Part shown: positions 14,731 to 51,219 of the stretch, piece by piece
How the letters are laid out: each line of letters begins with the position of its first letter
How positions within the stretch are numbered: position 1 is the stretch's first letter
Assembly (NCBI GenBank): GCA_033439265.1
Contig: JAVTVX010000017.1
Span: forward strand, 591,001 to 655,000
Direction of reading: 5' to 3'
DNA: 64,000 nt
From: Dillenia suffruticosa
Lineage: Eukaryota; Streptophyta; Magnoliopsida; Dilleniales; Dilleniaceae
Notes under the pieces: generated by a model
Told to the model about the DNA's origin: nothing
Seen by the model: only the letters and a program-made list of their open reading frames with translations
Database searches by the model: none
Made by a program: the position numbers and the translations under genes

Positions 14731-17700
14731 ATGTTCTCCCCGTCTATTACCACAATGTGGTCTGTTTGGCTGCCTCTTATTAGTTTGGTTATAATTGGTT
14801 TAACCCATTTGGTCTACAAATGGAGGAACCCTAAATGCAACGGTAAACTTCCTCCCGGTTCCATGGGGCTGCCACTTATTGGAGAGACCATTCAGTTTTT
14901 CATCCCAAACAAGTCCTTGGATTTCTCACCTTTCATCAAGGAGAGAATGAAAAGGTATTGTTTCCTACTAAAATGGTTTCGATTTTGTTTTTCATAGTAT
15001 ACAACTTTGTCTGGTGCATGCTATCTATCACATTCTTTTGTCCATAACAAATACGTATAATTGGGGTTTCAATTTTTTTTTTAATATTATGAAACCAATA
15101 GATCTGTTGATGAATAATTATTTGACATATCAATTATATAACTAAATATTCAAGTGTAAATGAATTTTTCATATTTTTGTGATATTTAAATTAAAATTTT
15201 GAATTGTCCAAGTTGCATTTTTATTTTAAAATTTTTTAAATATGGCCATGCAGTTATGGGTATACACTTTTCGGCTTAGTGGGTTGTTTCTCTTTTGTTG
15301 AAAAATAGATATGGGCCATTGTTCAAGACAAGTTTGGTGGGTCGATCGGTGGTGATATCATCCGACCCGGATTTCAACCATTTTCTTTTCGGACAAGAAG
15401 GAAAGCTGGTGGAGCTTTGGTACATGGACTCATTTGCAAAGCTTCTCAAACAAAATTCTGATTCAACGACGGCAACTGGTTACATTCATAAATACCTCAG
15501 AAACTTAATTTTGAGTCACTTTGGAACTGAAATACTCAAACAAAAGTTGCATTCTGGTTTGGAGGTGGCCATACGTAAAGCACTCGATGCCTGGTGTGAA
15601 TTGCCCGAGGTTGAATTCAAAAATGCAAATGCTGCGGTAATTTTCTACAATTTTTTTTTATAATATATATTTTTCAATTTTTTTTAAAAAATTTATTTAA
15701 TTTTGATCGGTATATTCTTGCAGATGATATTTGATATAACTGCAAAGCAGATTTTCAGTTATTGTCCTCAAAAATCGGAGGAGAAATTAAGTGAAAAATT
15801 AGTAGATTTCTTGCAGGCTCTTATGTCATTTCCGGTGAATATTCCTGGGACAACTTTCCACAAATGTATGAAGGTAAATGAGGAAAGAAAATGATTATTA
15901 CTAAAAATAATAACACCTAAAGAAGAAGCCTTATATGCATGTGTGTGTGCGTGTATTTATGTTTATGTTTTAAAAAATCTCTGAATAATTAAATCATTAA
16001 TATGTCTTTTTTTTTTTAATTGAATGAATGTAAATAATGTAGAATAAAAGGGCTGTAGAGAAGATAATAGGACATGAGTTAGAAGAGAGAGCAGCTTTCC
16101 CCGAAAAACGCCAAGGAGATATGATTGATCAGGTTCTGGAAGACATGAAGACAGAGAAGTTTCTAAACAAAGATTTTGTAGTTCACATGATGTTTGGGCT
16201 TCTTCTAGCCAGCTTCGAGACCATCTCCGCCACACTTACCTTGGCCATGAAACTCCTAACTGAACATCCTTCTGTTGTTCAAGAATTAACGGTTCTCTCT
16301 CTCTCTCCCCATTATTAATTTTTTTTTGGATGAACTATTAAATTATGCTAGTGCTGTGTTTATAATTGCTAACTTGATCAGGAGGAACATGAAGCACTAT
16401 TGAAGAACAGGGAAAATCCAGGGTCTGGACTTACATGGAGCGAATACAAATCAATGACCTTTACACACCATGTGGGTAGTTAATAAATTAAACATAAGCA
16501 TCTATCTTAAATTTTATATAACAATATCTACTTTAAAAAAACTCAAACTTGCCGATAAAAAAAGTATTATTAATTATTTTATATTTTAGTATCGTCTTAT
16601 ATGAAATTATTAAACACGTCATAAATAGACTTGACATGACTCCATTCAAAAACTATGTGCTCCAATTACATATTTTATTATCTATTTGAAATGAGTAATT
16701 AAGCCGAATGATTATTCATTTCAAAAAATTAAATTTATAGATAAATGTAATATTAATTATTTTATATTTTAATACCTCACAAGTAAAAAGGGTTATCGGT
16801 GCAGTGTTGACCCATCGATGATTTTCTAATTTGCACAGGTGATTAGCGAATCGCTTAGAATGGCTAGCGTGGCTCCGGGAATTTTAAGAAGAGTTATAAA
16901 TGATATTGAAGTAAACGGTTCGTGTTCAAATATTTTACTTAACAAATTTGTATTTTTCACAAGGATATAAATGATTTGTCGAATCCCAACGTAGTATAAT
17001 CCCAAAATATGAAAAATAAAAATATTAACCCCTTTTTGTTTTCTTTTGTGTTCTTTTAGGATATACAATTCCGAAGGGGTGGACTATCATGGTCGTGCCT
17101 GCAGTCATACAATTGAATCCTAAGGTTTATGAAGACCCACTTGTATTTAATCCACATCGTTGGAAGGTAAGGACAGGACAGGTCTATGTATTTGACAAAG
17201 CACACTTAATGTCAAGGAACATTCAAATTTAGTGCATTTCCACAGATTAGATAGTTTACATGACAATGACCTGCGGGGACGAATCGGAATGTGCATCTCA
17301 TTTAATTATATCTTTCCCAGCTTTCTATCATCTTCATTATTTTATGGTGAAGTTATAAATTATCATATATTACTTATAGTTAGTATATACAAGATTTGTA
17401 ATTATAGGATAAAATTAATGATCGTGAGGTTAATCATAATATATTATTTTAATAATTTTAAATTATTAATATTTATAAGGTTAGTGTTTATTGGGCTGTG
17501 CGGTGTCCGCCATGGCCACCGGTCACTTTACTAACTTCAACAAGATTTGAATTCAAAAATAGAGTAATGACTACAGTTAATATAGATAGTCGACCAAATG
17601 GAAAGGATGTTAATTCTCTTTATCAAGACCCGTGTTAAAATTTTATGAATGAAAAAAACTATATCGATAGAACTTCCATCTAAAAACAGTTTGACCATAT

Positions 17701-18240
17701 TTCAGATCGGATTAGTAAATATCAGTAAATGGAAAAAATTTAAGACACCAAAAGAAATATATAAATACACGTACATACATAGGCGGAGAGAGAGAGAGAG
17801 ATGCTCACCATTTTTGCCCTCTCTAAATATCTTTTTAAGAATCCCTAAGTCCTAGGAAATGTCTGTAATGGTTATGGTTAATAAGAATCATATACCAATA
17901 ATGGGACATGGTTTCAGGACATGGGAGCAATAGCAACAGCAAAGAATTTTATACCATTCGGAGGGGGTTCAAGGTCATGTGCAGGAGCAGAGTTCAGCAA
18001 AGTTTTCATGGCAGTTTTTATTCACGTCCTTGTTACCAATTACAGGTAGGTATTTCTGTATAATTTTTATTAATCATTCATATCATTTAATTTTTAAAAT
18101 TGCATCTGCTCCTAAATCTGATATTTTTTAATTTGAAAAATATTCATAGTTGGACGAAGATAAAGGGAGGAAATATTTATCGGACTCCAGCTCTAAGGTT
18201 TCGTGATGGTTTCCACATCAAGGTCTCCAAGAAGATTTAG
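14731..18240 (+). CDS. CYP87-family cytochrome P450, copy 1
   Basis: This is a haem-thiolate monooxygenase of the CYP85 clan and resembles CYP87A. By family it would oxidise a triterpenoid or steroid skeleton on the ER membrane. Nine exons are 14731-14954, 15309-15636, 15724-15873, 16043-16291, 16382-16471, 16839-16917, 17060-17166, 17918-18045 and 18150-18240, giving 481 residues with every junction GT-AG and in phase. The N-terminal hydrophobic anchor is at about residues 10-30, followed by KLPPGSMGLPLIGE. The I-helix motif is ASFET (290-294), ExxR is E351-R354, the PERF-like motif is NPHRW, and the haem loop is FGGGSRSCAGAE with Cys430. ATG 14731 is used because in-frame codons upstream are not ATG. 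It lies 437 bp from an OSC 3' stump pointing toward it. No breaks are seen. Divergence from copies 2 and 4 is modest. The CYP87 family is likely; the substrate is not knowable here. Confidence 0.9.
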
Positions 18241-18676
18241 CTCCATCAGAATTCAAATAAGTTCCTAAGTGTCTAAATACTATATTTTTCGTTCATCTAT
18301 ATAATTACAAAGTAGGAAATAAAAAAAAATTTACGATCGCTGTTATATAAATTTACGAGCAGACCCCTTGAGCAAATCTTGTGGGTGTAATAAAAATCAT
18401 GATACTACTATTATTAAGATTAAGAATTGAAGATTTTCACCAAGTAAATTTGAATATCATAATGTTATACCGTTTCATTGCATAAAAAAAACCGATCATC
18501 AATTTATCTTGCCATAAACATCGATTATTCATCAAACCATCATCCGATTATCCATCCGTAGCCAAACATGGGATGGAGCTGTTCTAAACACACATATTAA
18601 GGCCTCCCCAGCACAAACATAAGACAATACAAGAAAGGGAACAAACTCTTTTTTAAGTTCATGCTATAAGGCTGAG
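18241..18676. other. Convergent 3' intergenic between P450 copy 1 and OSC stump
   Basis: This is shared 3' flank. The same sequence, including aaatcttgtg..gtaataaaaatcat, lies downstream of P450 copies 2 and 3, and a conserved segment (aggcctccccagcacaaaca) precedes each OSC 3' end. No gene is present. Confidence 0.6.
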
Positions 18677-18998
18677 CTAGACACTTCTTGATGGCAGTGG
18701 AACTAGCTTACAGTATTCTGCTAGAGCCCATATGGGGAAGATGTTTCTGTACGCGGCAAAGTGCAGCATGCTGTTCCTGCAGTAGACTCCAGTAATTTCC
18801 TGCCAAACAAGCATATTTTAGAGTTAGTCTTTTCTGTGTTGCATCTCCAAAACAATCCGAGTTAGAAATATTGAGAGATTTATGTTCATAGTTCCAAGAA
18901 TCCTTTGTTACTTCATACGTAATGTAGGCTAAAAATACCTGTTGTGGGAAGTCGCCATCTTCCATTTGAGGAGTGATAAGAAAACTTTGCTGCTCGAT
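18677..18998 (-). pseudogene. Oxidosqualene cyclase 3' stump, copy A
   Basis: Only the last exon (about 18799-18677, ending PLPSRSV-stop like the intact copy) and part of the preceding exon (EDGDFPQQ region, to 18998) remain. At 18998 the homology to OSC ends abruptly inside the exon. It switches to the gatgatgatg..ccacgtcgaaacgc sequence found at 9497 upstream of the DPM1 copy. This is the join of a tandem duplication, not gradual decay. The stump has no start, no catalytic region and no promoter of its own. Confidence 0.85.
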
Positions 18999-21900
18999 GG
19001 TGATGATGATAGCCACGTCGAAACGCTGTCGTATTGACTCCTTCCGTACGTGTTTTAGGAAAATGGGCTGACACCAAGACCCACACAAGCGGAAGTACGA
19101 TTTTAGGCCCAATATGGAACACAAATAGCCCATTAGGCAATCACCAATTTTTTTTAAATTTTTTTTTAACGCTTGACATCTGTATCCACCGTCGTTTGGT
19201 TGGCTTAACGGGAAGCGTGCTGAGATCCTTTAACCATGCCCTAGTTTGACTCGACATGAGAATAGAAAAAATCACGTTGTGAGATCCCCCTCCAAAAGCG
19301 GGTCTGACAGAAAATCGATCCAGATTAATAAGGACAAAATTTTAAATATTTAGCGGTGGTCAAATCAGGAACAAAAAAAAAAAAGACATCAATTTTTTTT
19401 TATTCAAATCTTTTCTTTTTCTTAACCCAATTTTTCTCATTTAAATCTTTCTTCTTTTTTAAACTACAGTTTTTTTTCTGGGTCTTTATTCTTTTTCTGA
19501 TCCAGTATTTTTTTTAATCAGATCTTTACCTTTTTTTTTTTACCTAACTTTTATTTTTCACTTCAACCCTTCACCTTTATTGGACCACAATTTTTTTTTT
19601 CCTTTAGGTTTTTACTTCTTTTTTTTTTCTATCACTTAAGACCTTTGTCTTTTAGGAGATAGATTTTTCTCCTTTTGTTTTTTTGACCCCATTACCATAG
19701 TTTTTTTTTTTTATTTTTTTATTTTTTTTTTATACAGGTCCTCGCTCTCTTTTTTTTACCCAGCTTTTTTTTTTCACTTATGTCTTTCATCATTTTTTAA
19801 CCACATTTGTTTTTTTCCATTCAGCTCTTTGTTTTTTTTGACCAAGTTTTTTTTTTCACTTAAATCTTTCATCTTTTTGAGATATAGAACTTTTTTTTTT
19901 TTTTGCCCCACGGATGGTTGACCTTTTATTTTTAGATTACAATTTTTTTATTTTTTTCCATTTAACTACTTACTTTTTTTACTTCTTGACCCAATTTTTT
20001 TCCTCTTAAGTTCTTCATCTTTTTTTGCAAGAGGTTTTTCAACTTTTGTTTTGTTTTTTGATTTTTTTTTGTCTCATGGATGGTCATCTATTTATTTTTA
20101 GATTACAATTTTTTATTTTTTTATTCAAATCCTTGCTGTTTTAAATTTTTGATCTAGTTTTTTCAGTTAAGTCTTTCATTTTTTGACATTTATTTTTTCA
20201 CTTCTTTTATTTGGTTAGTCTCCCATTTTTTCAACCCAGTTTTTTCTCTTCTTTTTTACTTCACTTGTTAGTCTCATATATATATATTTATTACCTTTTT
20301 ACTCCACCTTTTACTCTTTTTTATTTCATTCATTGGTTTTTTTTTTTAGAATTCCAGTAGTTAGAGTCTTTTTTTTATTTTTTGTATCGTTAATATATGT
20401 TTTTTTATTAATTTAAATAATAATTTAATTCAGATATTAAGTTACGTTAATTATAAATTTAATAGGTGTTTATACAATAAAAAAATATAATTAATATTTT
20501 GTGAACACCCCATACGTTAGAGTGGCAGTAATTAGTTTTATATAAAAGGCTCTTTAGGTCTTTTAATTACCGACCAGTATCACGGCACCTCAAGCCTCAT
20601 CATAAGCATATTTCAACGTACTCCAATAAAAAAATTAGTAATAAGAAATTTAATATTCTAATTAAAAGAAATACAAAATGTCAAGAGTGACAAACTAAAA
20701 GTCATACGATGAAAAATCACATTTATTAAATGTAACAATTTAAAAGCTAAAAGTCATCTAGAAAACCAAAATCCAATGGACATTCATTTAAATTCCTTAA
20801 CATTTATAACAAATTTTAATTTTTTAAAAAGATAATTTAAACAATTAATATTAATTTTATTTAAAATTGAGGTTATTCAATCATTTTTTTTTAATTTTTG
20901 TATGCTAATTTTAAAAATACTTAAATTGAACAAAGAGAATGTAAAACAAACATATTATCTGGAAAGTGGTATGAATTTTGAAAACACCGTCAAAGGGGTT
21001 TTGCTACCATCAAAAGTAAGAAAACAAATCAAGTTCGGTGGAATTGTGCTCCAAAGAAAAGACAAATCATACGGCTAAAAATTTTTGTTAGTGACAGGAA
21101 TTCAGTGGAATTGTCATCCAAAGAGATGAAGGAGACCGATGGCACTGTCAATATTCTTTATAGGTCACCCTTGGCTGGCTACAAGGAATCTGGAAACGAT
21201 GATCCTATTGGCTATGGCTGCGACGAGAGAGAGAGAGAGAGATGACCCATCTAAGATTATGGTGGGGGTTCCTTATAAATGGTGACCCTTTGTCTAATTT
21301 AGATGCATGGACCGACTGCCCACATGGGTTAGAAGTATTTATTACTTTTATGGATATTTACAATTTAAGGGATTCGAAAATTTTAAATTCCCATTTAATT
21401 ATCATTATTATTTTAATATCTTGTTCTATAAAAATAGTTATAACAATTTTATAATAGTATCTCAAATTATTTCAGAAAATCAGAAACATGATTTTTTTTT
21501 ATTCTAATTATTTCTTTTACGAACATAGGACTTTGACTTGGAGAGTCCATCATCATTAGTCTACCAAAAAATATATACAAATATTGACCATTGCTACTAA
21601 AAAACAGAATTATTGTATGTCAAAATCGTGGCAGGACGAATAGTTACTATTATTTTTTTGAAAAAAAATACATGTTTGTTATAGACACGAATTTGAAAAT
21701 CATCGCATTTGACGACTTTTCTCTAAATCCTCTGATGGGACTAGTGTTATAAGGAAAAATTGAGAAAAGATTTAACTTCAATCAGGTGATTTTTCAAATA
21801 TAAAATTATTTACATAATAATAATTTAATATTTTATAGAGAAATTTATTTCTATTTACAAAATTATATATATATATATATATATTTTAAATTTTCTCCTT

Positions 21901-22449
21901 TAATTAAAGTGAAATATTTCAAAAATACAAAACTTTAAAATGCACAATTCTTAATAAAATCAGAAATCGGTATTCAATTAAATCAATTAAAATAATTAAT
22001 TTAATTTGATTATATAATTTTTATAATTATAATCTAATTAAATAATTTAAAAAATCGATAGGCGTGAAAAAAGTCAGACATGTGTCACTTTTCCTTACTA
22101 CAGAAATTTATCACAAACTGTCACCGCCACCGTGTCCTTTTCGAGTTTACATGCCAAAAGATATCCTTTCCCCTTTCAAAATCAAAGGTTTAAGATAGTT
22201 CACAAATTATAAAAAGAAAAGAATAGGGTAGTTTCCTAATTTATCAATTTTAACACCGAATTTCCTCAATTATTTATTTTGTAGAAGGAAGGAGGGAAAG
22301 AGCAAAAGAAGAGAGGGGGAGAGAGAGAATTTTTTCTCTAAATTTTTAAATGAATTTTTTTTTTAATATTTTTTATTATTTTAATGGTAAAAATCAACGA
22401 TTGATAGACAAAAAGAGTTAATTTAAGATATTTTTGTAGTTGAAAGGAG

Positions 22450-22484
<35 letters not shown>

Positions 22485-23690
22485 GTTTTGATAACATTTT
22501 TGTATCTGTCTCATAGTTTAGGTTTAATATTTTATAGAGAAATTTTGTTTCCATTTACAAAATTGTATTTTTAAGAAAATTTTTTACATTAATTAAATAA
22601 TATTATAAATATAATATAAATAAGTTAAAGCAAAATAACTTGTGAGAAGATGAGATTTTAAAAAAATAGAGACTTAACTCGTTCAACCTAAATCAAATCA
22701 AATTTAGTGAGAGTAAAATTAATTATTGAATATTGATGGTTTATAAAAAATATATATATTAAGATTTGGGTAATGTTATATAGGTTAAATTAGTTAAAGA
22801 GTAAAATAAAATAAAATAAATATAATATAATAAATAATAAATTGAAAGTTGCAAATTTGAGTATTTTTTTTTAATTTGTCGAAGAGGATCATTTTTAAAT
22901 TAAATAAAAAGTATTTAGAATATTATAAAACAAAGTGTGACATAAGTCGATTGTTTCGATCGAGGTGTCCTTAGATATGGAGTTAAGGTTGAGGTGAGGC
23001 AAATCACAATGACTGTACTTGTTTGTTTGGACGTTCGAACTTGGGACCACCATTTGTGTGAGAAACTGTTTTATACATTTGTGGCCCCTTTTACAATCTC
23101 TCTCTCTCTCTCTCTCTCTCTGCTTGTTGTTTCGGTCATTGGGGAACAACAAGCCTTTTTCGCACTCGCAATGGAGTCCAGGTCTAGGAAGTAGAGCACA
23201 AGTTGCGGAGAGTGCATTCTGAGTACAGTTATCAACGGTGGAATTAAACTACCAGCCCTGCTTGGTTGAATATTGCGACTCAAAAATAATTAACAACCCT
23301 AGAAATCGTATAGTAAGAAATGAGGATTTCAACAACTTTGAACTAGAAATGACAAATTATTCATGTCATTTGACAAATAAAAATTATGAGGATTTCTCTT
23401 GTGATAAATTGACAAGATTTGACAAAAAGTATTCATTTAACACCGCAAAATTTTGGGCATTGAAAGAGTGATGGGGTTTGCCAAGTCAACCATAGCCAAG
23501 TTTTTCCAATCCGTGCAACAAATTTTTCTTTCACATCCATCAAGCACGAGACAGAATCTAGCTTCATTCAAACTCAAAATTGGATACTTTGACAAACCAA
23601 CACATGTGACATCATATGTATGGCCATTTGAGTTGATTTAATGAAGTGGTCTGGTAGCACCATCTATCAAGTACTAAAGCAAACACCCCT
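18999..23690. other. AT-rich left part of duplicated unit 2
   Basis: This is the repeat of 9497-14620, with indels. It holds no gene. It includes the T-rich array at 19370-20350, (GA)n at about 21228-21242, (TA)n near 21860-21880 and 22450-22482, and (TC)n at 23099-23121. Open frames here are low-complexity or shadows of the microsatellites. Confidence 0.7.
19370..20350. repeat. T-rich degenerate array
   Basis: Nearly 1 kb is dominated by T-runs of 6-12 bases. They are separated by short recurring phrases such as cacttaagtctttcat, gacccaattttt and agattacaattttttt. The spacing is irregular, so it is not a clean satellite. The matching place in unit 1 (about 10550-10720) has only a short version, which implies expansion in unit 2 or contraction in unit 1. 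Confidence 0.7.
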
Positions 23691-23697
23691 TGTGACC

Positions 23698-23705
23698 TAT
23701 AAAAG
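23698..23705 (+). promoter_or_regulatory. TATA box of P450 copy 2
   Basis: TATAAAAG lies 98 bases before the ATG, in the same context as in copies 1 and 4. The flank also shares gtgacatcatatg with copy 4; in copy 1 that part is altered. Confidence 0.65.
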
Positions 23706-23802
23706 GGTAAAGCTCTTCACAAGAGCCCACCCAAAATCCACCAACAACTCTCTCATTTCTACGTACTTTTCCATTTGGATTTTCTTCTAAGTTTTGCCGG
23801 AG

Positions 23803-26800
23803 ATGTTCTCCCCATCTATGACCACAATGTGGTCTGTTTGGCTGCCTCTTATAAGTTTGGTTATAATTGGTTTAACCCATTTGGTCTACAAATGGAGGAA
23901 CCCTAAATGCAATGGTAAACTTCCTCCTGGTTCTATGGGTCTGCCACTTATTGGAGAGACCATTCAGTTTTTCATCCCAAACAAGTCCTTGGATTTCTCA
24001 CCTTTCATCAAGGAGAGAATGAAAAGGTATTGTTTTCTACTAAAATGGTTTCGATTTTGTTTTTCATAGTATACTACTCTGTATAGTGCATGCCATCTAT
24101 TGCATTACTTTGTCTCTAACAAATATGTATGATCGGAGTATCAATTTTTCATTTTATATATTATGATACCAATAGATTTGTTGATAAATAATTGTTTGAC
24201 ACATCAATTATATAACAAAAACAAATGAATTTTTCATTTTTTAGGATGTTTAAATTAAATCTTCGAAATCGTCCAAGTAGCTTTTATTTATTTATTTTTA
24301 ATTTAATAAATATGGACATGCATTTATCCCTGTGCACTTTTTGGCTTAGTGGGTTGTTTCTTTTTTGTTAAAAAATAGATATGGGCCAATTTTCAAGACA
24401 AGTTTGGCGGGTCGATCCGTGGTGATATCATCCGACCCGGATTTCAACCATTTTCTTTTCGGACAAGAAGGAAAGCTGGTGGAGCTCTGGTACATGGACT
24501 CATTTGCAAAGCTTCTTCAACAAAGTTCTGATTCAACCACAGCAACCGGTTACATTCATAAATACCTCAGAAACTTAATTTTGAGTCACTTTGGAACTGA
24601 AACACTTAAACAAAAGTTGCATTCTGCTTTGGAGGCAGCCATACGTAAAACACTCGATGCCTGGTGTGAATTGCCCGGGGTTGAATTCAAAAATGGAAGT
24701 GCTGCGGTAATTTTTTACAATTATTTTATAATATATATTTTTTAAGTTTTAATAAAAAAAATATATAAATTTTGATTGATATATTCTTGCAGATGATATT
24801 TAACATAACTGCGAAACAAATCTTCAGTTATAATCCAAAAAAATCGGAGGAGAATATAAGCGAAAAATTAGTAGATTTCTTGCAGACTCTTATGTCATTT
24901 CCGGTGAATATTCCTGGTACAACTTTCCACAGATGTATGAAGGTAAATGAGGAAAGAAAATTCTCCAACCACCTTTGATTATTACTAAAAATAATAACAC
25001 CTAAAGAAGAAGCCTTATAAGTATGTACGTGTGTATGAATGTATGTATGTACATATGTTTGTGTTTTGAGTATGTATGTATATATGTTTATGTTTTGAAA
25101 AATATCTGAATAATTAAGTCATTAATATGTCTTTTTTTTAATTGAATGAATGAAAATAATGTAGAATAAAAGGGCTGTAGAGAAGATAATACGACGTGAG
25201 TTAGAAGAGAGAGCAGCTTTCCCCGAAAAACGCCACGGAGATTTTCTAGATCAGGTCCTGGAAGACATGAAGACAGAGAAGTTTTTAAACAAAGATTTTG
25301 CAGTTCACTTGATATTTGGGCTTCTTCTAGCCAGCTTCGAGGCCGTCTCCGCCACACTTACCTTGGCCATGAAGCTCCTAACTGATCATCCTTCTGTTGT
25401 TCATGAATTAACGGTTCACACACACTCTCTCTCTCTCCCCCCCCAACGTTAATCGTTTTTTGGATGAACTATTAAATTATGCTAGTGCTGTGTTTATAAT
25501 TGCTAACATGATCAGGAGGAACATGAAGAACTACTGAAGAACAGGGAAAATCCTGAGTCTGGACTTACATGGGACGAATACAAATCAATGACCTTTACAC
25601 ACCATGTGGGTAGTTAATCAACTAAATATAAACATCTATCTTAAATTTGCCAATGAGCTTTAACTCAAATGGCAGATTCCCCCTCCCCATGAAATATATT
25701 CGAGTTCAAACCCCTATGTATGCACAAAAAAAAAAAAAAATCTATCTTAAATTTTATAGAACCTGCTTTAAAAACTCCAACTTACGGGAAAAAAATATAT
25801 ATTACTAATTACTTTATATTTTAATACCTCAAAATTAAAAGTATTATCGGTGAAGCATTGACCTATTGATGATGTTCTAATTTGCACAGGTAATCAACGA
25901 ATCGCTTAGAATGGCCAGCGTGGCTCCGGGAATTTTAAGAAGAGTTATAAAAGATATTGACGTAAATGGTTTGTATTCAAATATTTTATTTAACAAATTT
26001 GTCTTTTTGATGATGATATAAACGATTTGACAAATCCTAGTATAGAATAATTCCTAAATATGGAAAAATAACACCTTCTTTTTTATTTTTTTTCATTTTT
26101 TAGGATATACAATTCCAAAAGGGTGGACTATAATGGTCGTACCTGCAGTCATACAATTGAATCCTAGGACTTATGAAGACCCACTTGCATTTAATCCACA
26201 TCGATGGAAGGTAAGGACAGGTCCATGCATTTGACAAAACAAACTTAATGTCGACTGTCGAAGAATATTTGAATTTACATGGCAATGACCTGTGGGGACA
26301 TATCGGAATGTGCATGGCATTTAATCATAGCTTTTGAAAAAGGTTGTTTATCATATTGATGCCCCAACTTTCTATTAATCTTCGTTATTTTATGGTGAAA
26401 TTACTAATTATGATGTATTATTTGTAATTAATATAAACGAGATTTGTAATTATTGGATATAATTGGTAGACGTGAGATTAATCATAATATTTTATATAAT
26501 AATTTTAAATTATTAATATTTATAAAATTAGTGTTTATTTTATGGTGTACTATTTATAATTAATATATATGAGATTTGTAATTATTGGATATAATTGGTA
26601 GACGTGAGATTAATCATAATATTTTATATAATAATTTTAAATTATTAATATTTATAAAATTAGTGTTTATTATGCTGTGCGGGCCACTAACTTTAATAAC
26701 TCCATCACGAATTGGATTCAAAAATAAAATAATCACAATTAATATATATAGATCAATATACAGTCAGTCTAGTAAGATAGGGTATTAGATTTTTTAACTA

Positions 26801-27363: not shown

Positions 27364-28159
27364 CTCCATCAGAATTCAAATAAGTCCCTAAGTGTCTAAA
27401 TACTATATTTTTTGTTTATCTATATAATTACGAAATAGGAAATAAAAAAATTACTATGTTTAAATTATATAATATCGAATGTTATCGGAGCTCGGTGCTG
27501 ATATAAATATGCAGCGAAGCACGACATATAAAAATCACTTCTACGATCGCTCTGTTATGTAAATTACTTGTAATTGTATCGTATTTTTTATAATAGTGAG
27601 GATGTTGTTTTTTATGTATATATAAATAAATTTGTTGTAATATTATAATTCAAAAATCCATAACCTCACTAAGTAGATCTCATAATGTATATATAAAAAT
27701 TAAGAATTGAACCTTCAACTACCGGATCATACAATTAAAAATCTCTACCTTTATTGATCGTATGTTATAACCAACAAATCCGGCATAGCGGACAGACCCA
27801 TTGAGCAAATCTTGTGTGCATAATAAAAATCATCATGCTACTGTTATTAAGATTAAGAATTGAAGTTTTTCACTAAGTTCGAATTTCATAATGTTATATT
27901 GTTTCATTGCATAAAAAAACTGATCATCATTTTTTTTTTACAAAGATTTGAATTTGAGATTATTAGGGGATGAGAGTTTATACTACTTCGTTATCCCCCA
28001 TCAATTTTTGTTGTCATAAACATCGGTTATTCATCAAACCATCGTCAGATTATCTTTCCGTAGCCAAACATGAGATGGAGCTGTTCTAAACACACATATT
28101 AAGGCCTCCCCAGCACAAACAGAACACGATACAAAAGAGGGAACAAACTCTTTTTAAGT
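27364..28159. other. Convergent 3' intergenic between P450 copy 2 and OSC copy B
   Basis: This is homologous to 18241-18676, with added AT-rich sequence. A short minus-oriented SINE-like insert lies at about 27930-28002 and is absent from the copy 1 flank. No gene is seen. Confidence 0.6.
27930..28002 (-). repeat. Mini SINE-like insert, minus orientation
   Basis: Read on the minus strand, about 70 bp has a box A-like start (gtagtataaactctcatcc), a box B-like aaattcaaatct and an A-tail. On the plus strand it begins with a T-run. The neighbouring flank of P450 copy 1 is continuous here (gatcatcaatttatcttg), which serves as the empty site. Confidence 0.6.
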
Positions 28160-35792: not shown

Positions 35793-35794
35793 AT

Positions 35795-37515: not shown

Positions 37516-37561
<46 letters not shown>

Positions 37562-37869: not shown

Positions 37870-37911
<42 letters not shown>

Positions 37912-41600: not shown

Positions 41601-44600
41601 GGGTCCGACAAACCTTTTTCCGTATAGGTATGACATGGGCATGTACACCATTCTAGTGTAGCACCACATTTTTGCTGCAAATTTTATAGGAAAAAGAGAA
41701 CATTGTGAGAACCAGTTAATAACATAAATTGAGGCAAATAAGCTTTTTCCATTGACACTATCTACTAGAGGTCACAATACTAAAAGCTATTTGGAAAATA
41801 GTATGCCAACTGTTTCAAATAACCCTTCTTTAGATTACGGTTGGACGCTAGTATGCCAACTGTCTCAAATTTTGCATCCATACCCAGACAAATTCGTAGG
41901 AGTTACGACTCTCTCTAAGCAACAACTATGATTCAGACCTTGATAACTGCACTCATGAGGTCTTAAGTCCATACAAATACTTACCAAGTGTGCTTGCTTC
42001 ATGCACATGGTATGTGATTTGCTCGATAAGTTTGTTAATACATACTAAAGGTAGTGGACTATTGCTACACAACTTAAAAGATAGTTGTCCTTCTTTAGTC
42101 AACCAAAAAAAAAAAAAAAAACTTAAAAGATAGTTGTCGAGTGGTAGGGGTTAAATGAATATAATATTTGTGATTGATTTTATATTATTTTGAATAAATA
42201 TCACGTTAATATTTATATTTTGTGACATTTGACATATTATGATTAATAGAGAAAATTTATTAAGGAAAGTGAAGAAAAATGAGTTAAATTGGAGTAATTA
42301 TGTAAAAAAAAAAAAGAATTAGATAGTAATGCTCTTTCATTAACATATGGGCACATTGATTGCAAGGAGACAATGCAAGATTTTGAAGATTTATTATAAT
42401 AAAATTTTATTTCCCAATGTCACATTCAAGAGAAAATTGGGATGGAATTAGAGATATTGAAGATTTTGAAGATTTTTATTTCATTCCTAATATTTAGGAA
42501 AAGAAAATTTTGAAGATATAAATCTCAATTTATTTTATCTTTTAGAAATTTTTATTTTATTTAAAATTTTTAAAATGTTATTTTTTAGGAATTTGAATAA
42601 TTTTTCCTAAGGTAAAATTAGAAAAAACTCTATCTTGTGTTAGGGTTACTGTTCTTATATTAATAGGAGTGTTTCGTATCGTTTAAAACCCCCCAAATGG
42701 GTAGCAGCCTGAAGCCGGCAGCCGGCAGCCGGCGAAGGTGACTTTTCCTTGCTTCTTGACCTTGAGAGGCACATATTAGAGAGAAAAAAAGCTGCGGCCG
42801 TGGAAGCCATTTTTCCTTATAGTTTCAGCACATTCTTAGGAGCATCATTGAGGTTCGAGTCGATGGAAAAAAAAAATGACTGGAATTCTTTTGCCTCAAG
42901 TTTCCGCGAAGACACCAATAGAGTGTTCCGATGCTTATCCCCAACCTTTTTTTTTCCCTTGAGTGAACAGTTATATACTAAATAATGTCATTTGCTGTTT
43001 TATTGATAAACAATATGAACTAGTTGAGGAAAATCACCTAGTGAAATAGCAAATAATGTTTTAGTAATACTCTGTTTAAAACATAAAATAATTAGTACGT
43101 AATATTAAGCTTAGTAAGTTTTTTTTTTTTTTAATCAAATAGGAAGCTAACCTGGATGCATGGGAAAGAAAGAAGGCATGACCCAAAATTCAGGGGGCAT
43201 TGGGTTGCATCCAGACCAGTCAAAGAGACCAAGTATCTGCACAAACATAATGAAAGCAATAAATGTCTCACAATGCCAGTCATGAATAACAATGTAATTA
43301 CGCTGAAACAATTATGTGGTTTGGTGAAAAAGATTAATACTGAAAGCCAAGTTTTTCCCCAAGAGGGAATGCAAGTGGCACTGCCATGATCAAGGATCCA
43401 TTTTCGGGCTCGTGCCACGGCGTTGTCTAGACCACCATCAGGTCCTTCTCCCAAAATGCGCATACATATGTAGCTTAGTGCTGTGCTGAACATTGTGCTA
43501 TGACCCTCGATGTGGAATCCCCAACCCCCATCTTCATTCTGTTTGCAAAATAATCAAAAATCCATTACCACATTAAATTGATTTCGTTATTAAAAATGAA
43601 AAATAGCAAATGGGTTGCATTCCAAATCAAGAAATGTACCTGATGATAGTATAAATGGCGCAGGATTTCTTTTCTGTACTCTGCTGGGAAAGTAGTATTA
43701 AGGTGCCCAGTAATATACATACAGAACACCTGTAATGTGGCATTGAGTTCTATTTAGTTACTTGAGAGCTTTTTTACAAGTACAATTTTTTTATTATTTA
43801 TTAATCACAAGCGTGGCAGAGAGACAAGGGATACATACCAAAGGAGGAAGGAAAAATAAAGATCCACTGCTTTCAGCGGGCCAATGACCATCACTGGCTT
43901 GCAAAGCAGAAAAGAAATGGACTGCTCTTCTGAGTGCAGTTGTTGCTGTTTCATATGTAATTTCCTCACCATCTCCCACCTTCACTTGTGGAATAGTTTG
44001 CTTGAAATTTTTGTCTCTTAGAAACTGCAGTCATTTTGAAACCACTAATTAGTGAAAGTAAAAGGATAGTAATGGTTATAGTTCCAGGTGATCCCAAATT
44101 GCAGTTTTGTTTATGTCCTCAAGGTCAATATGATACCACGTGTTAAATTTCTAAAAATTTCATATTTTCGTGAACTGTGTAATATCCTATTATGTAGAGA
44201 CATGTATCACACAAATAAGCTAATTTTTAAGAATGCCCATATTATAAGGTGAGTAATAAATAAACAAAAGGAACTCGTAGGAATGAAACTACGTACAAAT
44301 TTATATTATGGATGGTAAAATAAAATATCCAGAGAGCAAGAGCGGAGATAGAAGGAATAGGAAGTAACAAGTTTTAGAACACCAATAAGATTACAGAAGA
44401 TTTTAACAGTACTTTTATCAATATTTTAATACTTTTAGAAATATTTGTTAAATCAACGTAACAATTTGCATACTATCATTTCTTTCTTCTATAAGGAATT
44501 GAACGGTCTTCTTGCATATGCCAAAACTAAAATTAGAAAAATAAAAAAATAAAAATTTAGCAAACTAATTGTTAAAGTTTTATACGATCGAGTTAGTATC

Positions 44601-44696
44601 TCGCATTGATAGATAGCGGAACTAAATGATACATATGTATATTAATGTATATATTATTATATATTATATTCTACCAATGTACAAGTTTCTTATTAC

Positions 44697-44781
<85 letters not shown>

Positions 44782-45319
44782 CTTCAATTCAAGTACAATC
44801 CCAAACAGAAAACAAAACATAATATTAATAAACTATAACCCAACCAATATCGTCTCTCCTCTTTTATAAACGTCTCAAGTTTATTTGATGATATTAATAA
44901 ACAAAATCATTCGCTCTATCTCTATATTTTCTCCCGATTATTGCTTGCTCAATCTTACGACTCTCATGGGGCAAAAGTAGGCTCGGAGTAAAAGTTTATT
45001 TTAGCGGGTGGAATATAAACCATAAAGGATGAGGCAAATGGTTATAATTTTTTAAGTAATAAATAATATTTCAAAGGTCAGGTCGGCTTCGCTGTGCCAA
45101 GTAGACTGGAAAGTTATAGCATTAATTTTGTTTATTTCCATAGCACTTATGTAACATTTTTCAGAAAAATATCACTAAAATTATTTTAAAATTCTAGAGG
45201 GGGCAACCACGTGCCTTCACCACCGACTAGACTAGGAAGTCATAAGCTTTAATTTTGTTTATTTCCATGACTATCATATAAGAGTAACTAATTTTAAAAT
45301 ATTTTTACCCACCAGCGCT

Positions 45320-45357
<38 letters not shown>

Positions 45358-45558
45358 CTGCATACGCCAGAGAAGATCACTACTAGGCTTGACATGATGT
45401 CTATTATTGTAAAACTCTCGACGAGCATTTTCAACCTGGGCTCTCTCCTCTGGTGTGCCTGCCTCTGGATCAAATTCCCATATTTGTCTTCCAACAAAAT
45501 TGTTTGTACTATATATGTTGGGGTCACTCCCCCCATCAGCTATTTTCAGCTTCCACAT
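38634..45558 (-). CDS. Oxidosqualene cyclase, copy C (beta-amyrin/lupeol synthase type), intact
   Basis: It cyclises 2,3-oxidosqualene to a triterpene at the ER. Seventeen exons: 45558-45358, 44024-43839, 43729-43640, 43538-43341, 43236-43152, 41674-41508, 41415-41227, 41131-41018, 40930-40811, 40715-40593, 40504-40406, 40145-40089, 39727-39681, 39596-39453, 39346-39088, 38998-38915, 38756-38634. All junctions are in phase and sum to 761 residues, the usual plant length. The start [10 protein letters not shown] is typical. DCTAE (catalytic Asp484, which protonates the epoxide) is present, as are QW-type repeats such as [12 protein letters not shown], and [15 protein letters not shown]. The product motif reads MWCYTR (256-261); beta-amyrin synthases usually have MWCYCR and lupeol synthases LCYCR, so the Trp favours a beta-amyrin-like product, while the Thr is unusual. 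It is divergent with P450 copy 4 and convergent with copy 3. The exact product cannot be told from sequence. Confidence 0.93.
39804..40027 (+). repeat. Hairpin-headed SINE-like insert in OSC intron 12
   Basis: The 224-bp insert has a poly-A tail and a 10-bp target duplication AAGAATTTCT (39794-39803 and 40028-40037). OSC copy B has the empty site near 29335. The first 47 bases form an 11-bp perfect inverted repeat GCAGAGGCTCT ... AGAGCCTCTGC (39804-39814 and 39840-39850). The last 100 bases carry ccgagttcaaatctc (box B-like) and the A-tail, like the mini SINEs here. Confidence 0.85.
41675..43151. other. Large OSC intron 5 with repeats
   Basis: This intron of about 1.5 kb contains the 30-bp A-tailed insert at 42090-42119. 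Around 42230-42700 there is an AT-rich block with repeated gaagattttgaagattt, followed by a GC-rich phrase with three tandem gccggca units near 42713-42734, which may be part of an old retroelement. The open frame at 42749-42985 (+) shows no recognisable similarity and is not called as a gene. Confidence 0.5.
42090..42119 (+). repeat. 30-bp A-tailed micro-insert
   Basis: cttctttagtcaacc plus an A-run lies between perfect 19-bp direct repeats aacttaaaagatagttgtc (42071-42089 and 42120-42138). It is retroposon-like by structure, yet carries almost no body sequence. Confidence 0.8.
44701..44778. repeat. (TC)39 microsatellite in OSC intron 1
   Basis: An uninterrupted 78-bp TC dinucleotide run. 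Open frames across it are artefacts of the repeat. Confidence 0.98.
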
Positions 45559-45892
45559 AATTAATTTCTTCTTATTCAATAGATATTAGATGAAGCACTC
45601 TGTATACACGACATTATCATCTAAAGGTATGAGTTTATGCCAAAAGAATTTTTACATATTGGGAATTTTATTTCTTTATTTCTTTTTATGTTCTTAGATA
45701 ATGAGAATTCGTATGCACGAATCCATATCTTGGATTTTTGAGGCCACTAGAAACAAAAATGACAGAATAATACATATTATTACTTGTAACTGTCATAGAA
45801 ATGTCATCCTTCAAAATAATAATAGAAAGAATATATTTTAGCTGTTTCCCGAAAAAGTCCATTCGATTTGAGCTCACAAATCTTCATTGCTG

Positions 45893-45932
<40 letters not shown>

Positions 45933-46113
45933 GTGCATGATTATGATATAGAGATATGCTTACCTTTGGTCTTTGATGATAACTAGTGCAACACTTTTGA
46001 CGACAAAGTGTTGAGCGATTTGTTTACTATGGAGAGGAGAAGAAGAGTGAAGCCTTAAGCGTAGGCAATAAGGGACTTACTGAGTCTGTTTAAAGATCTC
46101 TCGCTTTTTATAG
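45559..46113 (-). promoter_or_regulatory. OSC leader, probable 5' UTR intron and TATA box
   Basis: Read on the minus strand, a TATAAAAAGCG-like box lies at about 46113-46104. It is followed by a C/T-rich leader and a good donor CAAAG|GTAAGC (exon edge at 45964). A plausible acceptor precedes the ATG at about 45573. A (GA)n tract at 45896-45930 sits in this intron. A spliced 5' UTR is inference. Confidence 0.5.
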
Positions 46114-46848
46114 ATATTAAAGGAATTAAAAAAAAGGAAATGCAATAACTCAATTGGCCGACCCACAATTACCTGATTCAAGGGGCTGGCCCCTTTGATT
46201 TTTGATAATTATATTATTTTATTAAGACCAAGGGCAGGCACCGGGGAAGGCAAATAGCAGTTCTCCCGAAATAAATACAAAATTATATGAAAAATAATAT
46301 TTTATAAAAATTTAGAAAATAAAAAATATAGACAAATGCGTAAATATAAAAATTACAAAGATTTTTATATAAATATTAATTATATTATAAAAATAATAGA
46401 ATAACAATTTTTTATAATAAAAAATTTAAAATGATCAAATATATAATTATTAATCAAAATACAAATAAAAATATGTAAATATAAAAAATATAAGAATTTT
46501 TATGTAAATATTAATTAATTTAACATATCAAAATATTTCTAAAACAACAAATATTTCAAAAATGGGGAAATGTTAATATTGTAAAGTTTCTGTACATCAT
46601 AGTCATTCAATTCTTATTATACAAACAAATAAACTAAATCTTAATATTAAATTTTAGAATCGACCATTTAAGAGATCAATATAAAAAAAAGAAATAAATA
46701 AATATAATTTAAACGAAAATTAGAGAAAATATAATAATAATAATAGTTTTTAACCTACTGCGATCCTTCTCATTTATCTGGATTTAAGACTATGAGTGTT
46801 AAAAAAAACAAGCGGAGTTCCTTGTTAAATTCTTAATAATAATAATAA

Positions 46849-46904
<56 letters not shown>

Positions 46905-47850
46905 TATTAAAATTCCATCTTATTTCTAAATAATATATTTATAATTGAAAGAAAGAAATAATCATTGGGATTCTTGTACTTGATTCGCCCGTAGATGCAC
47001 CACACTTAAGACCAAGCAGTATCCGCCGGAGCCGGCCTTTAAGCATCCAAGCTACCAAACTTTTAGCCTATTTTTCTTTTTGTTCTGTCTCAAGTTGTTG
47101 AAGTCGAAAATAATAGTCAGTACCAACTTTGATTTATTTATGCAATACTGCCAAAAAAACGGCTTACTTTTGGAACTCTAAAATAGGTACAACATTTAAA
47201 AAAAAAAAAAAAAAAAAAAATCTTTACCCTGTGGACCCCTCAGTGTTGGCACGCGATGTTTAACAGCATAAGTGGAAGGAGTCCTCACTACAAAGTGGCC
47301 GGCGAAGAAAGGGTCTATTGGCTTTCCACGCAAATAATGCTTACAATGATGGTGTCATATCTTGGTCAAATAGACTCTCCCATCTGAATGTCATCACCTC
47401 CTTGTTATGTTCCCCCACAAGAATCAATCAAAGCCTCTTAACAAATCCAACTGGCAAAGCCAACCAAGAAGGCCCGTGGATGACACACTTTAATAGCACT
47501 GATTTACAACTTTCAGACTGTGCGGATGCTCTGGACCGAATTTCTTGTGGCCGATTGTCACATAGTCCATCTTTAAAACGTCATACATATAAAGCCGGAG
47601 AAAAAAGGGCAAAAGGGTTGGTTGGTCAACGGTTCGTTTTGATTAATATTTATGAGAATAATTTTTTTTTTTTATCAAAAGTGGGATCAAGTTCTCAAGA
47701 TCCTTTGATTAATACATAAAATCTTTTGTCCCAAGTGGTCAAAATTGCTTACTTTGACAAACCAACAATTGTGACATCATATGCATGGCCATTCGAGTTG
47801 ATTTAATGAAGTGGTCTGGAAGCACCATCTATCAAAGCAAACACCCCTTG
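46114..47850. other. Divergent intergenic between OSC copy C and P450 copy 4
   Basis: No gene is seen. It is AT-rich with a (TAA)n tract at 46836-46903 and an A-run near 47197-47220. The two start codons are 2.4 kb apart and transcribed away from each other, so regulatory sites for both genes should lie here. Confidence 0.6.
46836..46903. repeat. (TAA)n microsatellite
   Basis: About 68 bp of TAA repeats with one imperfect unit near the left end. Confidence 0.95.
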
Positions 47851-47855
47851 TGTCC

Positions 47856-47863
47856 TATAAAAG
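47856..47863 (+). promoter_or_regulatory. TATA box of P450 copy 4
   Basis: TATAAAAG lies 95 bases before the ATG, within the conserved proximal promoter shared with copies 1 and 2. Confidence 0.65.
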
Positions 47864-47957
47864 GTTAATGCTCTTCACAAGAGCCCACCCAAAATCCACC
47901 AACAACTCTCTCATTTCTACATACTTTTCCATCTTGATTTTCTAAGTTTTGCCAGAG

Positions 47958-49397
47958 ATGTTCTCCCCATCTATGACCACATTGTGGTTTGTTTGGGTGC
48001 CTCTTATAAGTTTGGTTATAATTGGTTTAACCCATTTGGTCTACAAATGGAGGAACCCTAAATGCAATGGTAAACTTCCTCCTGGTTCTATGGGGCTGCC
48101 ACTTATTGGAGAGACCATTCAGTTTTTCATCCCAAACAAGTCCTTGGATTTCTCGCCTTTCATCAAGGAGAGAATGAAAAGGTATTGTTACCTACTAAAA
48201 CGGTTTCGATTTTGTTTTTCATAGTATCCTACTTTTTCTAGTGCATGCCATCTATCACATTATTTTGTCCATAACAAATATGTATGATCGGAGTCTAAGT
48301 AGCCTTTTTTTTTTTAATTTTATGAATATGGACATGCAATTATCCCTGTACACCTTTTTGGCTTAGTGGGATGTTTCTTTTTTGTTAAAAATAGATATGG
48401 GCCAATTTTCAAGACAAGTTTGGCGGGTCGATCCGTGGTGGTATCATCCGACCCGGATTTCAACCATTTTCTTTTCGGACAAGAAGGAAGGCTGGTGGAG
48501 CTCTGGTACATGGACTCATTTGCAAAGCTTCTTCTACAAAGTTCTGATTCAACCACAGCAGCCGGTTACATTCATAAATACCTCAGAAACTTAATTTTGA
48601 GTCACTTTGGAACTGAAATGCTTAAACAAAAGTTGCATTCTGCTTTGGAGGCAGCCATACGTAAAACACTCGATGCCTGGTGTGAATTGCCCGGGGTTGA
48701 ATTCAAAAATGGAAGTGCTGCGGTAATTTTTTACAATTATTTTATAATATATATTTTTAAAGTTTTTATAAAAAAATTTTATAAATTTTGATTGGTATAT
48801 TCTTGCAGATGATATTTAACATAACTGCAAAGCAAATCTTCAGTTATAGTCCAAAAAAATCAGAGGAGAATTTAAGCGAAAAATTAGCAGATTTCTTGCA
48901 GGCTCTTATGTCATTTCCGGTGAATATTCCTGGTACAACTTTCCATAGATGTATGAAGGTAAATGAGAAAAGAAAATTCTCCAACCACCTTTGATTATTA
49001 CTAAAAATAATAACACCTAAAGAAGAAGCCTTATATGTATGTACGATTGTATGTATGTATATATGTTTATGTTTTGAAAAATATCTGAATAATTAAATCA
49101 CTAATATGTGTCTTTTTAATTGAATGAATGGAAATAATGAAGAATAAAAGGGCTGTAGAGAAGATAATAGGACATGAGTTAGAAGAGAGAGCAGCTTTCC
49201 CCGAAAAACGCCAAGGAGATTTGATAGATCAGGTTCTGGAAGACATGAAGACAGAGAAGTTTTTAAACAAAGATTTTGTAGTTCACACGATGTTTGGGCT
49301 TCTTCTAGCCAGCTTCGAGACCATCTCCGCCACACTTACCTTGGCCATGAAGCTCCTAACTGAACATCCTTCTGTTGTTCATGAATTAACGGTTCTA

Positions 49398-49431
<34 letters not shown>

Positions 49432-50688
49432 CCTCCCCATCTTTAATTGTTTTTTTGGATGAACTATTAAATTAAGCTAGTGCTGTGTTTATAATTGCTA
49501 ACATGATCAGGAGGAACATGAAGAACTACTGAAGAACAGGGAAAATCCTGAGTCTGGACTTACATGGGATGAATACAAATCAATGACCTTTACACACCAT
49601 GTGGGTAGTTAATCAATTAAATATAAACATTTATCTTAAATTTTACAGAACAATACCTGCTTTAAAAACTCAAATTTACGGAAAAAAAAGGTATTATTAA
49701 TTATTTTATATTTTAATACCTCAAAATTAAAAGTATTATTAGTGAAGCGTTGACCATTGATGATTTTCTAATTTGCACAGGTGATCAACGAATCGCTTAG
49801 AATGGCTAGTGTGGCTCCGGGAATTTTAAGAAGAGTTATAAATGATATCGAAGTAAATGGTTTGTGTTCAAATATTTTATTTAACAAATCTGTCTCTTTG
49901 ACAATGATATAAATGATTTGACGAATCCTTGTATAGAATTATTCCTAAATATGGAAAAATAACCCTTTCTTTTTTTTGCTTTTTTTTTTTCTTCATTTTT
50001 TAGGATATACAATTCCAAAAGGGTGGACTATAATGGTCGTACCTGCAGTCATACAATTGAATCCTAGGACTTATGAAGACCCACTTGCATTTAATCCACA
50101 TCGATGGAAGGTAAGGACAGGTCCATGCATTTGACAAAACAAACTTAATGTCGACCGTCGAAGAATATTTGAATTTACATGGCAATGACCTGTGGGGACA
50201 TATCGGAATGTGCATGGCATTTAATCATAGCTTTTGAAAAAGGTTGTTTGTCATGTTGATGCCCCAACTTTCTATTATCTTCGTTACTTTACGGTGAAAT
50301 TACTAATTATGATGTATTATTTGTAATTAATATAAACGAGATTTGTAATTATTGGATATAATTGGTAAGACGTGAGATTAATCATAATATTTTATATAAT
50401 AATTTTAAATTACTAATATTTATAAGGTTAGTGTTTATTATGCTGTGTGGGGCCACCGATTACTTTAATAACTCCTTATTAAATTCAAAAATAAAATAAT
50501 TACGGTTAATATACATAGATCAACAACAATCGTCATAGTAAGATAGGTGTTAAATATTTTAATTAAATCTCGGATTTGAAACTTAAGAATGTAAAATACT
50601 ATACTGGAAGAGAATTGTTCCTTAAATAGGATACTCGAATCGGATTAGTCAGAGAATGATTTTGAATACCAATTGTAAGAAAGGGAGG

Positions 50689-50767
<79 letters not shown>

Positions 50768-51219
50768 ACTAACCTTTTTTGTCCTCTCTAAATATAATTT
50801 AAGAATCCCTAAATCCTAGGAAATGTCTGCAATGGTTAGGGTTAATAAGTGACTTATACCAATAATGGGACATTGTTTCAGGACATGGGAGCAATGGCAA
50901 CAGCAAAGAATTTTATACCATTCGGAGGGGGATCAAGGTCATGTGCAGGAGCAGACTTCAGCAAAGTTTTAATGGCAGTTTTTATTCACGTCCTTGTTAC
51001 CAATTACAGGTATTTCTCTATAATTTTTATTAATCATTCAAGCTCTATTTAATTTCTAGGATTACATTTGTCATATTTCTGCTCCTAATATGATATTTTT
51101 AAATTAAAAAATATATATATATTCATAGTTGGATGAAGATCAAGGGAGGAAACATTTGTCGGAGTCCAGCTCTCAGATTTCCCGACGGTTTCCACATCAA
51201 GGTCTCTAAGAAGCAGTAG
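47958..51219 (+). CDS. CYP87-family cytochrome P450, copy 4
   Basis: The role is as for copy 1. Exons are 47958-48181, 48395-48722, 48809-48958, 49143-49391, 49511-49600, 49781-49859, 50004-50110, 50882-51009 and 51129-51219, giving 481 residues. Anchor and proline hinge are as in copy 1. The I-helix is ASFET (threonine kept), ExxR is in NESLRMAS, then NPHRW and haem loop FGGGSRSCAGAD with Cys430. The stop is TAG at 51217-51219 and the C-terminus is SKKQ. The exon 4 acceptor is GAAG where the sister copies have GTAG, still a valid AG. Intron 7 carries a long (GA)n run (50693-50765). It is the divergent partner of the intact OSC, and that pair is the best candidate for a working two-gene pathway. 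No coding break is seen. Confidence 0.92.
50693..50765. repeat. (GA)n microsatellite in P450 copy 4 intron 7
   Basis: About 73 bp of GA repeats. The same intron in copies 1 and 2 has only short GA runs (near 17787 and 26915), so the tract has expanded here. Confidence 0.95.

Follow-up and report, generated by a model that had tools for sequence, protein, structure and literature searches.

A repeated array of CYP87-type P450 and oxidosqualene cyclase genes in Dillenia suffruticosa: a predicted minimal triterpene cluster

Introduction

Does an array of P450 and oxidosqualene cyclase (OSC) genes in Dillenia suffruticosa represent a triterpene pathway, and which kind of product would be expected from it? 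The question is raised by a stretch of 64,000 nucleotides (C17:591001-655000 on contig JAVTVX010000017.1, from an assembly of 596 Mb in 37 contigs; this whole stretch is termed the window), in which CYP87-type P450 genes alternate with intact and broken OSC genes. A preliminary description had proposed a triterpenoid gene cluster here, with three intact P450s, one OSC of 761 residues and the remains of two further OSCs and one further P450; gene models and tblastn searches gave the same coordinates, counts and lengths, so that the observation is confirmed, the interpretation is partly supported and a working pathway is predicted. As judged from the sequences, the locus is probably a minimal triterpene cluster, in which the OSC would make a pentacyclic-type scaffold and the P450s would oxidise its product.

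Results and Discussion

Extent of the array and gene models

Gene models were derived directly from the DNA, with every intron of GT-AG type and no internal stops (Table 1). Pfam matched P450_1 to p450 (E=1.8e-60) and the OSC to both SQHop_cyclase domains (C domain, E=2.4e-55; N domain, E=2.8e-40), and chance origin is excluded because the spliced frames are intact at this length and the E-values are so low. The three P450s of the window are 90.4-93.3% identical to one another. The flanks were searched over 40 kb to the left and 80 kb to the right, using the OSC and P450_3 as queries at E 1e-3: no match to either family was found on the left, and the right flank, outside the view of the preliminary description, contained an OSC fragment and a fourth intact P450 (P450_4, 85.4-87.5% identical to P450_1-3), with nothing after P450_4 as far as C17:735000. 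With these two included, the array reaches ~58 kb. Among the best 89 of 625 candidates, P450 matches at >=75% identity to a cluster P450 were confined to this locus.

The alternating arrangement noted previously can be described more precisely, as a convergent pair (P450> <OSC) that is repeated: the window holds three neighbouring pairs of this kind, whether intact or broken, and self-comparison shows that at least one P450/OSC pair was copied as a unit. Adjacent non-homologous scaffold and tailoring genes, by which a metabolic gene cluster is recognised, are thus present (OSC and P450s, ~58 kb). A commonly used threshold asks for three or more enzyme classes, of which the locus falls short: near C17:0.55-0.74 Mb there was no BAHD match among 104 and no UGT match among 86 matches listed genome-wide (best candidates scored), and an FMO-like gene is broken.

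Table 1. Features of the array, in window numbering (position 1 is the first base of the window).
Feature	Position	Strand	Description
P450_1, CYP87-type	14731-18240	+	intact, 9 exons, 481 residues; I-helix ASFETIS
P450_2, CYP87-type	23803-27363	+	intact reading frame, 9 exons, 481 residues; I-helix ASFEAVS (Ala294)
P450_3, CYP87-type	47958-51219	+	intact, 9 exons, 481 residues; I-helix ASFETIS
P450_4	68293-72464 (including stop)	+	intact, nine exons, GT-AG introns; beyond right window edge
OSC	38634-45558	-	intact, 17 exons, 761 residues; MWCYTR 256-261, VSDCTAE 482-488
Intergenic region, divergent OSC / P450_3	45559-47957		2.4 kb
OSC fragment	67281-67695	-	beyond right window edge
OSC remnant 1	18680-18999	-	limited to exon 17 and the 3' part of exon 16; tblastn match to 18983
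OSC remnant 2	28180-34315	-	tblastn; without exon 1 and exons 4-8; stops, frameshifts
P450 remnant	35800-38003	+	tblastn match from 35802; no match to exon 1, exon 4 and parts of exons 2 and 8
Tandem duplication, left copy	9500-18999		self-comparison; other copy ~18996-28515, aligned blocks 72-94% identical
GA-repeat junction	35655-35800		OSC intron-1-like DNA meets P450 exon 2
FMO-like gene fragments	53707-62554	+	weak Pfam matches; in-frame TGA in first exon

Motifs, relatives and expected product of the OSC

OSCs of beta-amyrin-synthase type are defined by DCTAE, by MXCYCR with a tyrosine (histidine in the cycloartenol type) and by SF residues (PMC5118845). The cluster OSC exhibits DCTAE and the tyrosine (Tyr259), with MWCYTR instead of MXCYCR and TF instead of SF. 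The marks of cycloartenol synthases, MWCHCR and the GYN residues (PMC5118845), are absent, and this identity was rejected. The earlier expectation of an OSC outside the cycloartenol type is thus upheld by motif, and in a tree that included human lanosterol synthase and no plant cycloartenol synthase the cluster OSC stands far from the human enzyme.

Outside C17, OSC loci were found at 13 places, three of which were modelled fully or nearly and four partly read. The nearest relatives, among the matches listed, are two arrays at C18:6.34-6.52 Mb and C4:6.58-6.80 Mb, with MWCYCR in the two copies read and no CYP87 match beside them among those listed. In the tree, the cluster OSC and the C18 and C4 paralogues form one clade (100/98; the C4 row is partial), separate from the MLCYCR type represented by a copy at C13:7.10 Mb (63.7% identical to the cluster OSC) and two copies at C35:18.76-18.80 Mb, contigs that may be duplicates of each other; MLCYCR is the motif reported for olive lupeol synthase (PMC5118845). 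A further OSC on C29 carries MWCYCR and is 74.6% identical to the cluster OSC over 693 residues. The C18 paralogue is intact, with 761 residues, 90.1% identity and the motifs MWCYCR, SFGSQ and VSDCTAE, and comparison with it gives a synonymous divergence (dS) of 0.366, a nonsynonymous divergence (dN) of 0.050 and a ratio (omega) of 0.14, the substitutions in the cluster OSC including C260T and S411T. With the C29 gene as outgroup, 44 changes are the cluster OSC's own and 12 those of the C18 paralogue (chi2 18.3); with the C13 gene, the counts are 29 and 16 (chi2 3.76, not significant).

Residue 260 of beta-amyrin synthase is a second-shell cysteine at which C260W raised and C260R and C260S lowered the yield, and changes at this residue in apple MdOSC1 shifted the alpha/beta-amyrin ratio; an effect of C260T is not reported in the available text (PMC10850208). 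Literature searches gave no match for MWCYTR or for 8J5Z. An apparent hot spot of changes at residues 728-733 (M728C, K729R, C731S, L733Q) was rejected, and no clustering is claimed because equal density is reached in 38% of random placements; with an offset of one residue, these positions appear to lie where active-site residues of Ilex IaAS1 have been named (Met729, Asn731, Leu734; PMC6678101).

What scaffold might then be expected? The best PDB match is 8j5z (72.2% identity over 759 residues, similar length), an entry described as 'terpene cyclase/mutase family member' that we take to be, probably, the Tripterygium friedelin synthase. A leucine two positions before DCTAE has been linked to friedelin: exchange for isoleucine retained friedelin formation and exchange for valine abolished it (PMC5118845). 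As 8j5z exhibits LSDCTAE whilst the cluster OSC has Val482 at this position, friedelin is an unlikely product, and assignment as a friedelin synthase was rejected. The product would rather be expected to be beta-amyrin or a related oleanyl, ursanyl or lupyl compound, possibly in an altered mixture.

Placement of the P450s

Of the five other CYP87-like loci in the genome, four were modelled (C2, C5, C30 and one of two on C15, the C15 model being partial), using a spliced aligner that reproduced P450_1 except for the last residue. The cluster P450s are 45.5-51.6% identical to these four genes. Named references were CYP90B1 from the PDB and provisional sequences of CYP87A2, CYP87D18 and CYP716A12: identities were 47.8-49.8% to provisional CYP87A2, 46.5-47.8% to provisional CYP87D18 and 32.4% (P450_1) to CYP90B1. 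A CYP716 identity was rejected, with 28.1-29.2% between three of the four cluster P450s and provisional CYP716A12. P450s with more than 40% identity are placed in one family and those with more than 55% in one subfamily. In trees of 9 and 11 rows with CYP90B1 as the sole outside family, the four cluster P450s form one clade inside the CYP87-like genes (100/100, without provisional rows) and join provisional CYP87D18 at 100/100 (on a long branch). Membership of family CYP87, as previously proposed, is therefore well supported by sequence comparison. Placement against named CYP87A and CYP87D members is less clear-cut: the P450s are sister to CYP87D18 in the tree and lie below the 55% required for subfamily CYP87D (provisional CYP87D18 being the only member tried), and they may deserve a subfamily of their own. 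Due to the low identity, the reaction of CYP87D18 cannot be transferred to them.

Mosaicism, the I-helix residue and selection

Within 1440 aligned coding bases of the four intact P450s, 20 sites are parsimony-informative, and these fall into four blocks (numbers denote the copies grouped): three sites 14|23 (254-524), five 13|24 (573-880), five 14|23 (970-1317) and seven 12|34 (1361-1434). So few runs occurred in 0/20,000 shuffles, a pattern that indicates recombination or gene conversion among the copies; the intact P450s thus have a mosaic make-up, as gene conversion would produce. In exon 4, P450_1 and P450_3 are distinguished by 6/249 bases, against 84/1191 in the remaining sequence (p=0.004; a single pair out of six, with the exon chosen post hoc).

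Codon 294, where the 13|24 block ends, encodes threonine (ACC) in P450_1 and P450_3 and alanine (GCC) in P450_2 and P450_4, and by alignment to CYP90B1 it is the position of the conserved I-helix threonine. Threonine is present here in 4/4 of the other CYP87-like genes modelled, and serine in provisional CYP87D18. The acid neighbouring this threonine may be equivalent to Glu286 of CYP87D20, the corresponding glutamate being residue 285 in provisional CYP87D18. A variant of CYP87D20 with three changes including E286A showed a high ability to form the 11-hydroxy product (PMC9590459).

Pairwise omega among the four P450s lies between 0.27 and 0.62 (six pairs). With P450_1 as reference, P450_3 has 8 nonsynonymous and 11 synonymous changes of its own, against a neutral expectation of ~3.7 to 1, and looks to be under constraint. 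P450_2 has 14 and 6 (8 and 1 in exon 4) and may be either relaxed or shifting, a test that is muddied by the conversion tract. Positive selection in exon 4 of P450_2 (12:1 nonsynonymous excess versus P450_3, Fisher p=0.02, exon picked post hoc) is not taken as proven, because the conversion tract spans most of this excess. It is conceivable, if doubtful, that the locus is a CYP87-only pentacyclic-triterpene cluster in which conversion between tandem copies swaps threonine and alanine at the I-helix oxygen-activation position; such switching would provide a built-in set of P450s, differing in oxidation depth or regiochemistry, on the product of one unusual MWCYTR cyclase. The genome also carries a canonical OSC paralogue, which with the four natural P450 variants offers a ready test of the roles of Cys260 and the I-helix threonine.

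Growth and decay of the array

OSC remnant 1 is truncated at ~18999, where it is fused to duplicated 5'-flanking sequence of the neighbouring gene on the left, which we take to be a dolichol-phosphate mannosyltransferase (DPM1) gene. The breakpoints of the tandem duplication lie just upstream of this DPM1-like gene and inside OSC exon 16; with the right breakpoint in exon 16, remnant 1 need not be a separate decaying gene and looks like the stump of the duplication. In OSC remnant 2, ~2.3 kb of additional DNA separates exons 10 and 11. The 3' end of the P450 remnant is itself duplicated (37190-37448 and 37721-38003), and at 80-82.5% DNA identity this remnant is further from the intact copies than these are from each other. 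At the GA-repeat junction, bases 35655-35777 resemble OSC intron 1 at 45250-45352 (77%). Exon 1 is missing from both OSC remnant 2 and the P450 remnant, the latter being short of part of exon 2 as well, so that a single deletion across their head-to-head 5' region could have inactivated both. The junction and these losses show that neighbouring units lost different genes: one retained P450_2 without its OSC, the next retained the OSC without its P450. A 9.5-kb tandem duplication together with one deletion at the GA repeat would explain much of the remnants. At the right end, an extra tandem repeat joins 63033-65308 to 73025-75319 (92%).

Nei-Gojobori estimates of dS are 0.064 for P450_2-3, 0.100 for P450_2-4, 0.102 for P450_3-4 and 0.142-0.182 for pairs with P450_1; since they are computed over mosaic genes, the branch order is only approximate. 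A CYP87A-like pair at C2:13.098 Mb and C5:15.800 Mb (94% identical, dS 0.180) looks like whole-genome-duplication copies and can be used to date a large duplication. The left flank of the array is collinear, in order and orientation, with a region on C20, where the small gene has a counterpart 84% identical in protein and the DPM1-like gene one 87% identical in DNA. Over the 6 kb of C20 read, similarity fades ~0.8 kb beyond the breakpoint; exons of P450s or OSCs are not seen in the ~1 kb past this point (the three hits there have E-values of 3.9 at best), and the genome-wide matches listed, from the best candidates, include none to OSCs on C20 and none to P450s close to this position. The array was thus assembled on C17 or lost from C20, and from the dS values the intact P450 copies are of roughly the same age as the large duplication, or younger. 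The locus is a readable record of cluster growth and decay, with breakpoints, loss of an OSC in one unit and of a P450 in another, and conversion tracts.

A probable minimal cluster and its alternatives

According to the explanation that we favour, repeated duplication of a convergent CYP87 P450/OSC pair would have built the cluster on one chromosome; the single intact OSC would convert 2,3-oxidosqualene into a dammarenyl-derived scaffold of pentacyclic type. Oxidation of this scaffold would fall to at least one of the four CYP87D-like P450s with intact frames, by analogy with the CYP87D enzymes that act at C16 of beta-amyrin or at C11 and C20 of cucurbitadienol. Extra units would have decayed, with one OSC and several P450s retained, and exon-sized tracts would have been exchanged between P450 copies by gene conversion. 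The sequences show the gene structures, the families, the history of tandem duplication, the constraint on coding sequence and the mosaicism; from these we infer the link of the P450s to the OSC product, the product itself, the carbon oxidised and any role in defence.

Two precedents favour this explanation by analogy. Maesa CYP87D16, Siraitia CYP87D18 and cucumber CYP87D20 are triterpene oxidases of beta-amyrin (C16) and cucurbitadienol (C11, C20) (PMC5684119), of the same family as the cluster P450s. CYP87D19 sits within the cucumber cucurbitacin (Bi) cluster, and the Bi clusters of cucumber, melon and Hemsleya combine, like the Dillenia locus, an OSC with a CYP87D gene (PMC8418127, PMC13091402). 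In the Bi cluster, however, one CYP87D gene (CYP87D19, reported as not yet characterised) is accompanied by an acyltransferase and by P450s of several families, and the OSC is cucurbitadienol synthase, whereas at the Dillenia locus a single CYP87 clade forms the array, no acyltransferase was detected and the OSC has its nearest relatives among beta-amyrin-synthase-type paralogues. The OSC neighbourhoods of clade II in Brassicaceae likewise hold an OSC and P450s in fast-changing surroundings, but with CYP705A, CYP708A and CYP702A, enriched acyltransferases and, in the available text, no repeated OSC/P450 unit (PMC7383575). An amplified CYP87 array next to an OSC was initially regarded as unusual; a CYP87 gene beside an OSC is not new in itself, since CYP87D19 lies in the Bi cluster. 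Nor is CYP87 amplification, as Camellia oleifera has 57 CYP87 genes, one of which tracks beta-amyrin synthase expression (PMC9223445). No repeated OSC/CYP87 array was described in the titles or displayed beginnings of abstracts among the literature matches listed for CYP87 or CYP87D with OSC or triterpene-cluster terms.

Several observations weigh against a working cluster. One OSC to four P450s is a lopsided ratio, only two enzyme classes (OSC and P450) were found, and identity to provisional CYP87D18 is low, as given above. Furthermore, P450_2 and P450_4 are without the conserved I-helix threonine and form the pair with the highest omega (0.62), so that the changes in P450_2 and the missing threonine could reflect decay instead of new function. 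Taken further, the locus would be a relic, i.e. a once-working cluster now decaying, whose intact frames are recent survivors and not a selected pathway. We consider this rather unlikely: it would fit the three OSC remnants against one intact OSC, the P450 remnant, the broken FMO-like gene (its exons separated by a retroelement) and the alanine in 2/4 intact P450s, but it is at odds with the omega of 0.14 that the OSC has maintained versus the C18 paralogue over a dS of 0.37, with an OSC and four P450s free of stops and frameshifts, and with the 8:11 ratio in P450_3.

It is improbable that the two gene families share no pathway, with the CYP87s acting on sterols or steroids and the OSC making an unrelated wax triterpene. 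CYP87G1 provides a model for this as a steroid C22-hydroxylase in the withanolide cluster of Solanaceae (PMC12246201), and the cluster P450s are by identity no closer to CYP87D18 than to CYP87A2 (both provisional); against it, the tree joins them with CYP87D18, with the reservation on that sequence noted above, and a P450 and a piece of an OSC were duplicated together. An assembly artefact, in which collapsed or mis-joined repeats give the alternating pattern, is highly improbable: the region is repeat-rich with similar copies, but the P450 copies are 7-20% apart in DNA, with distinct lesions, the contig measures 24.6 Mb with no N within the 184 kb read, and the left flank is collinear with C20.

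If the minimal triterpene cluster is functional, it would be another setting, beside the cucurbit Bi locus, for CYP87 clustered with an OSC, here one nearest to beta-amyrin-synthase-type paralogues.

Neighbouring genes and other loci

The FMO-like fragments match an FMO-like domain at E=6e-5 and a related domain at E=0.0029. Between their exons, at ~57.5-62.0 kb, lies a Ty3-type element with RVT_1, RT_RNaseH_2 and Tf2-1-like SH3 domains, on the basis of which identity as a long interspersed nuclear element was rejected; the FMO-like gene inside the cluster is thought not to be functional. An NCBIfam search returned only models far below the cut-off, and no relative was found in viral contigs. 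The right flank contains an open reading frame with PPR repeats at C17:678895. The left flank comprises a branching-enzyme-like gene (an adjoining stretch carries CBM_48 and alpha-amylase domains; Alpha-amylase_C matches weakly), a small gene and the DPM1-like gene, two stretches of which match Glycos_transf_2, one slightly below the cut-off. At the start of the latter (9269-9420, minus strand), an apparent one-base frame break was seen by eye between the likely ATG (~9420) and the conserved NNKYSLIVPTYNE.

An inverted repeat of ~200 bases (12262-12462 and 13284-13489, 75% identity) lies between the left-flank gene and P450_1, with a further match of 12313-12458 to 22311-22459, and is perhaps a small transposon. 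Elsewhere in the genome, C12:30.775-30.781 Mb holds a P450 that is CYP716-like by eye and, about 5 kb away, an OSC exon match containing a stop; together they may mark another triterpene cluster, of a more usual type.

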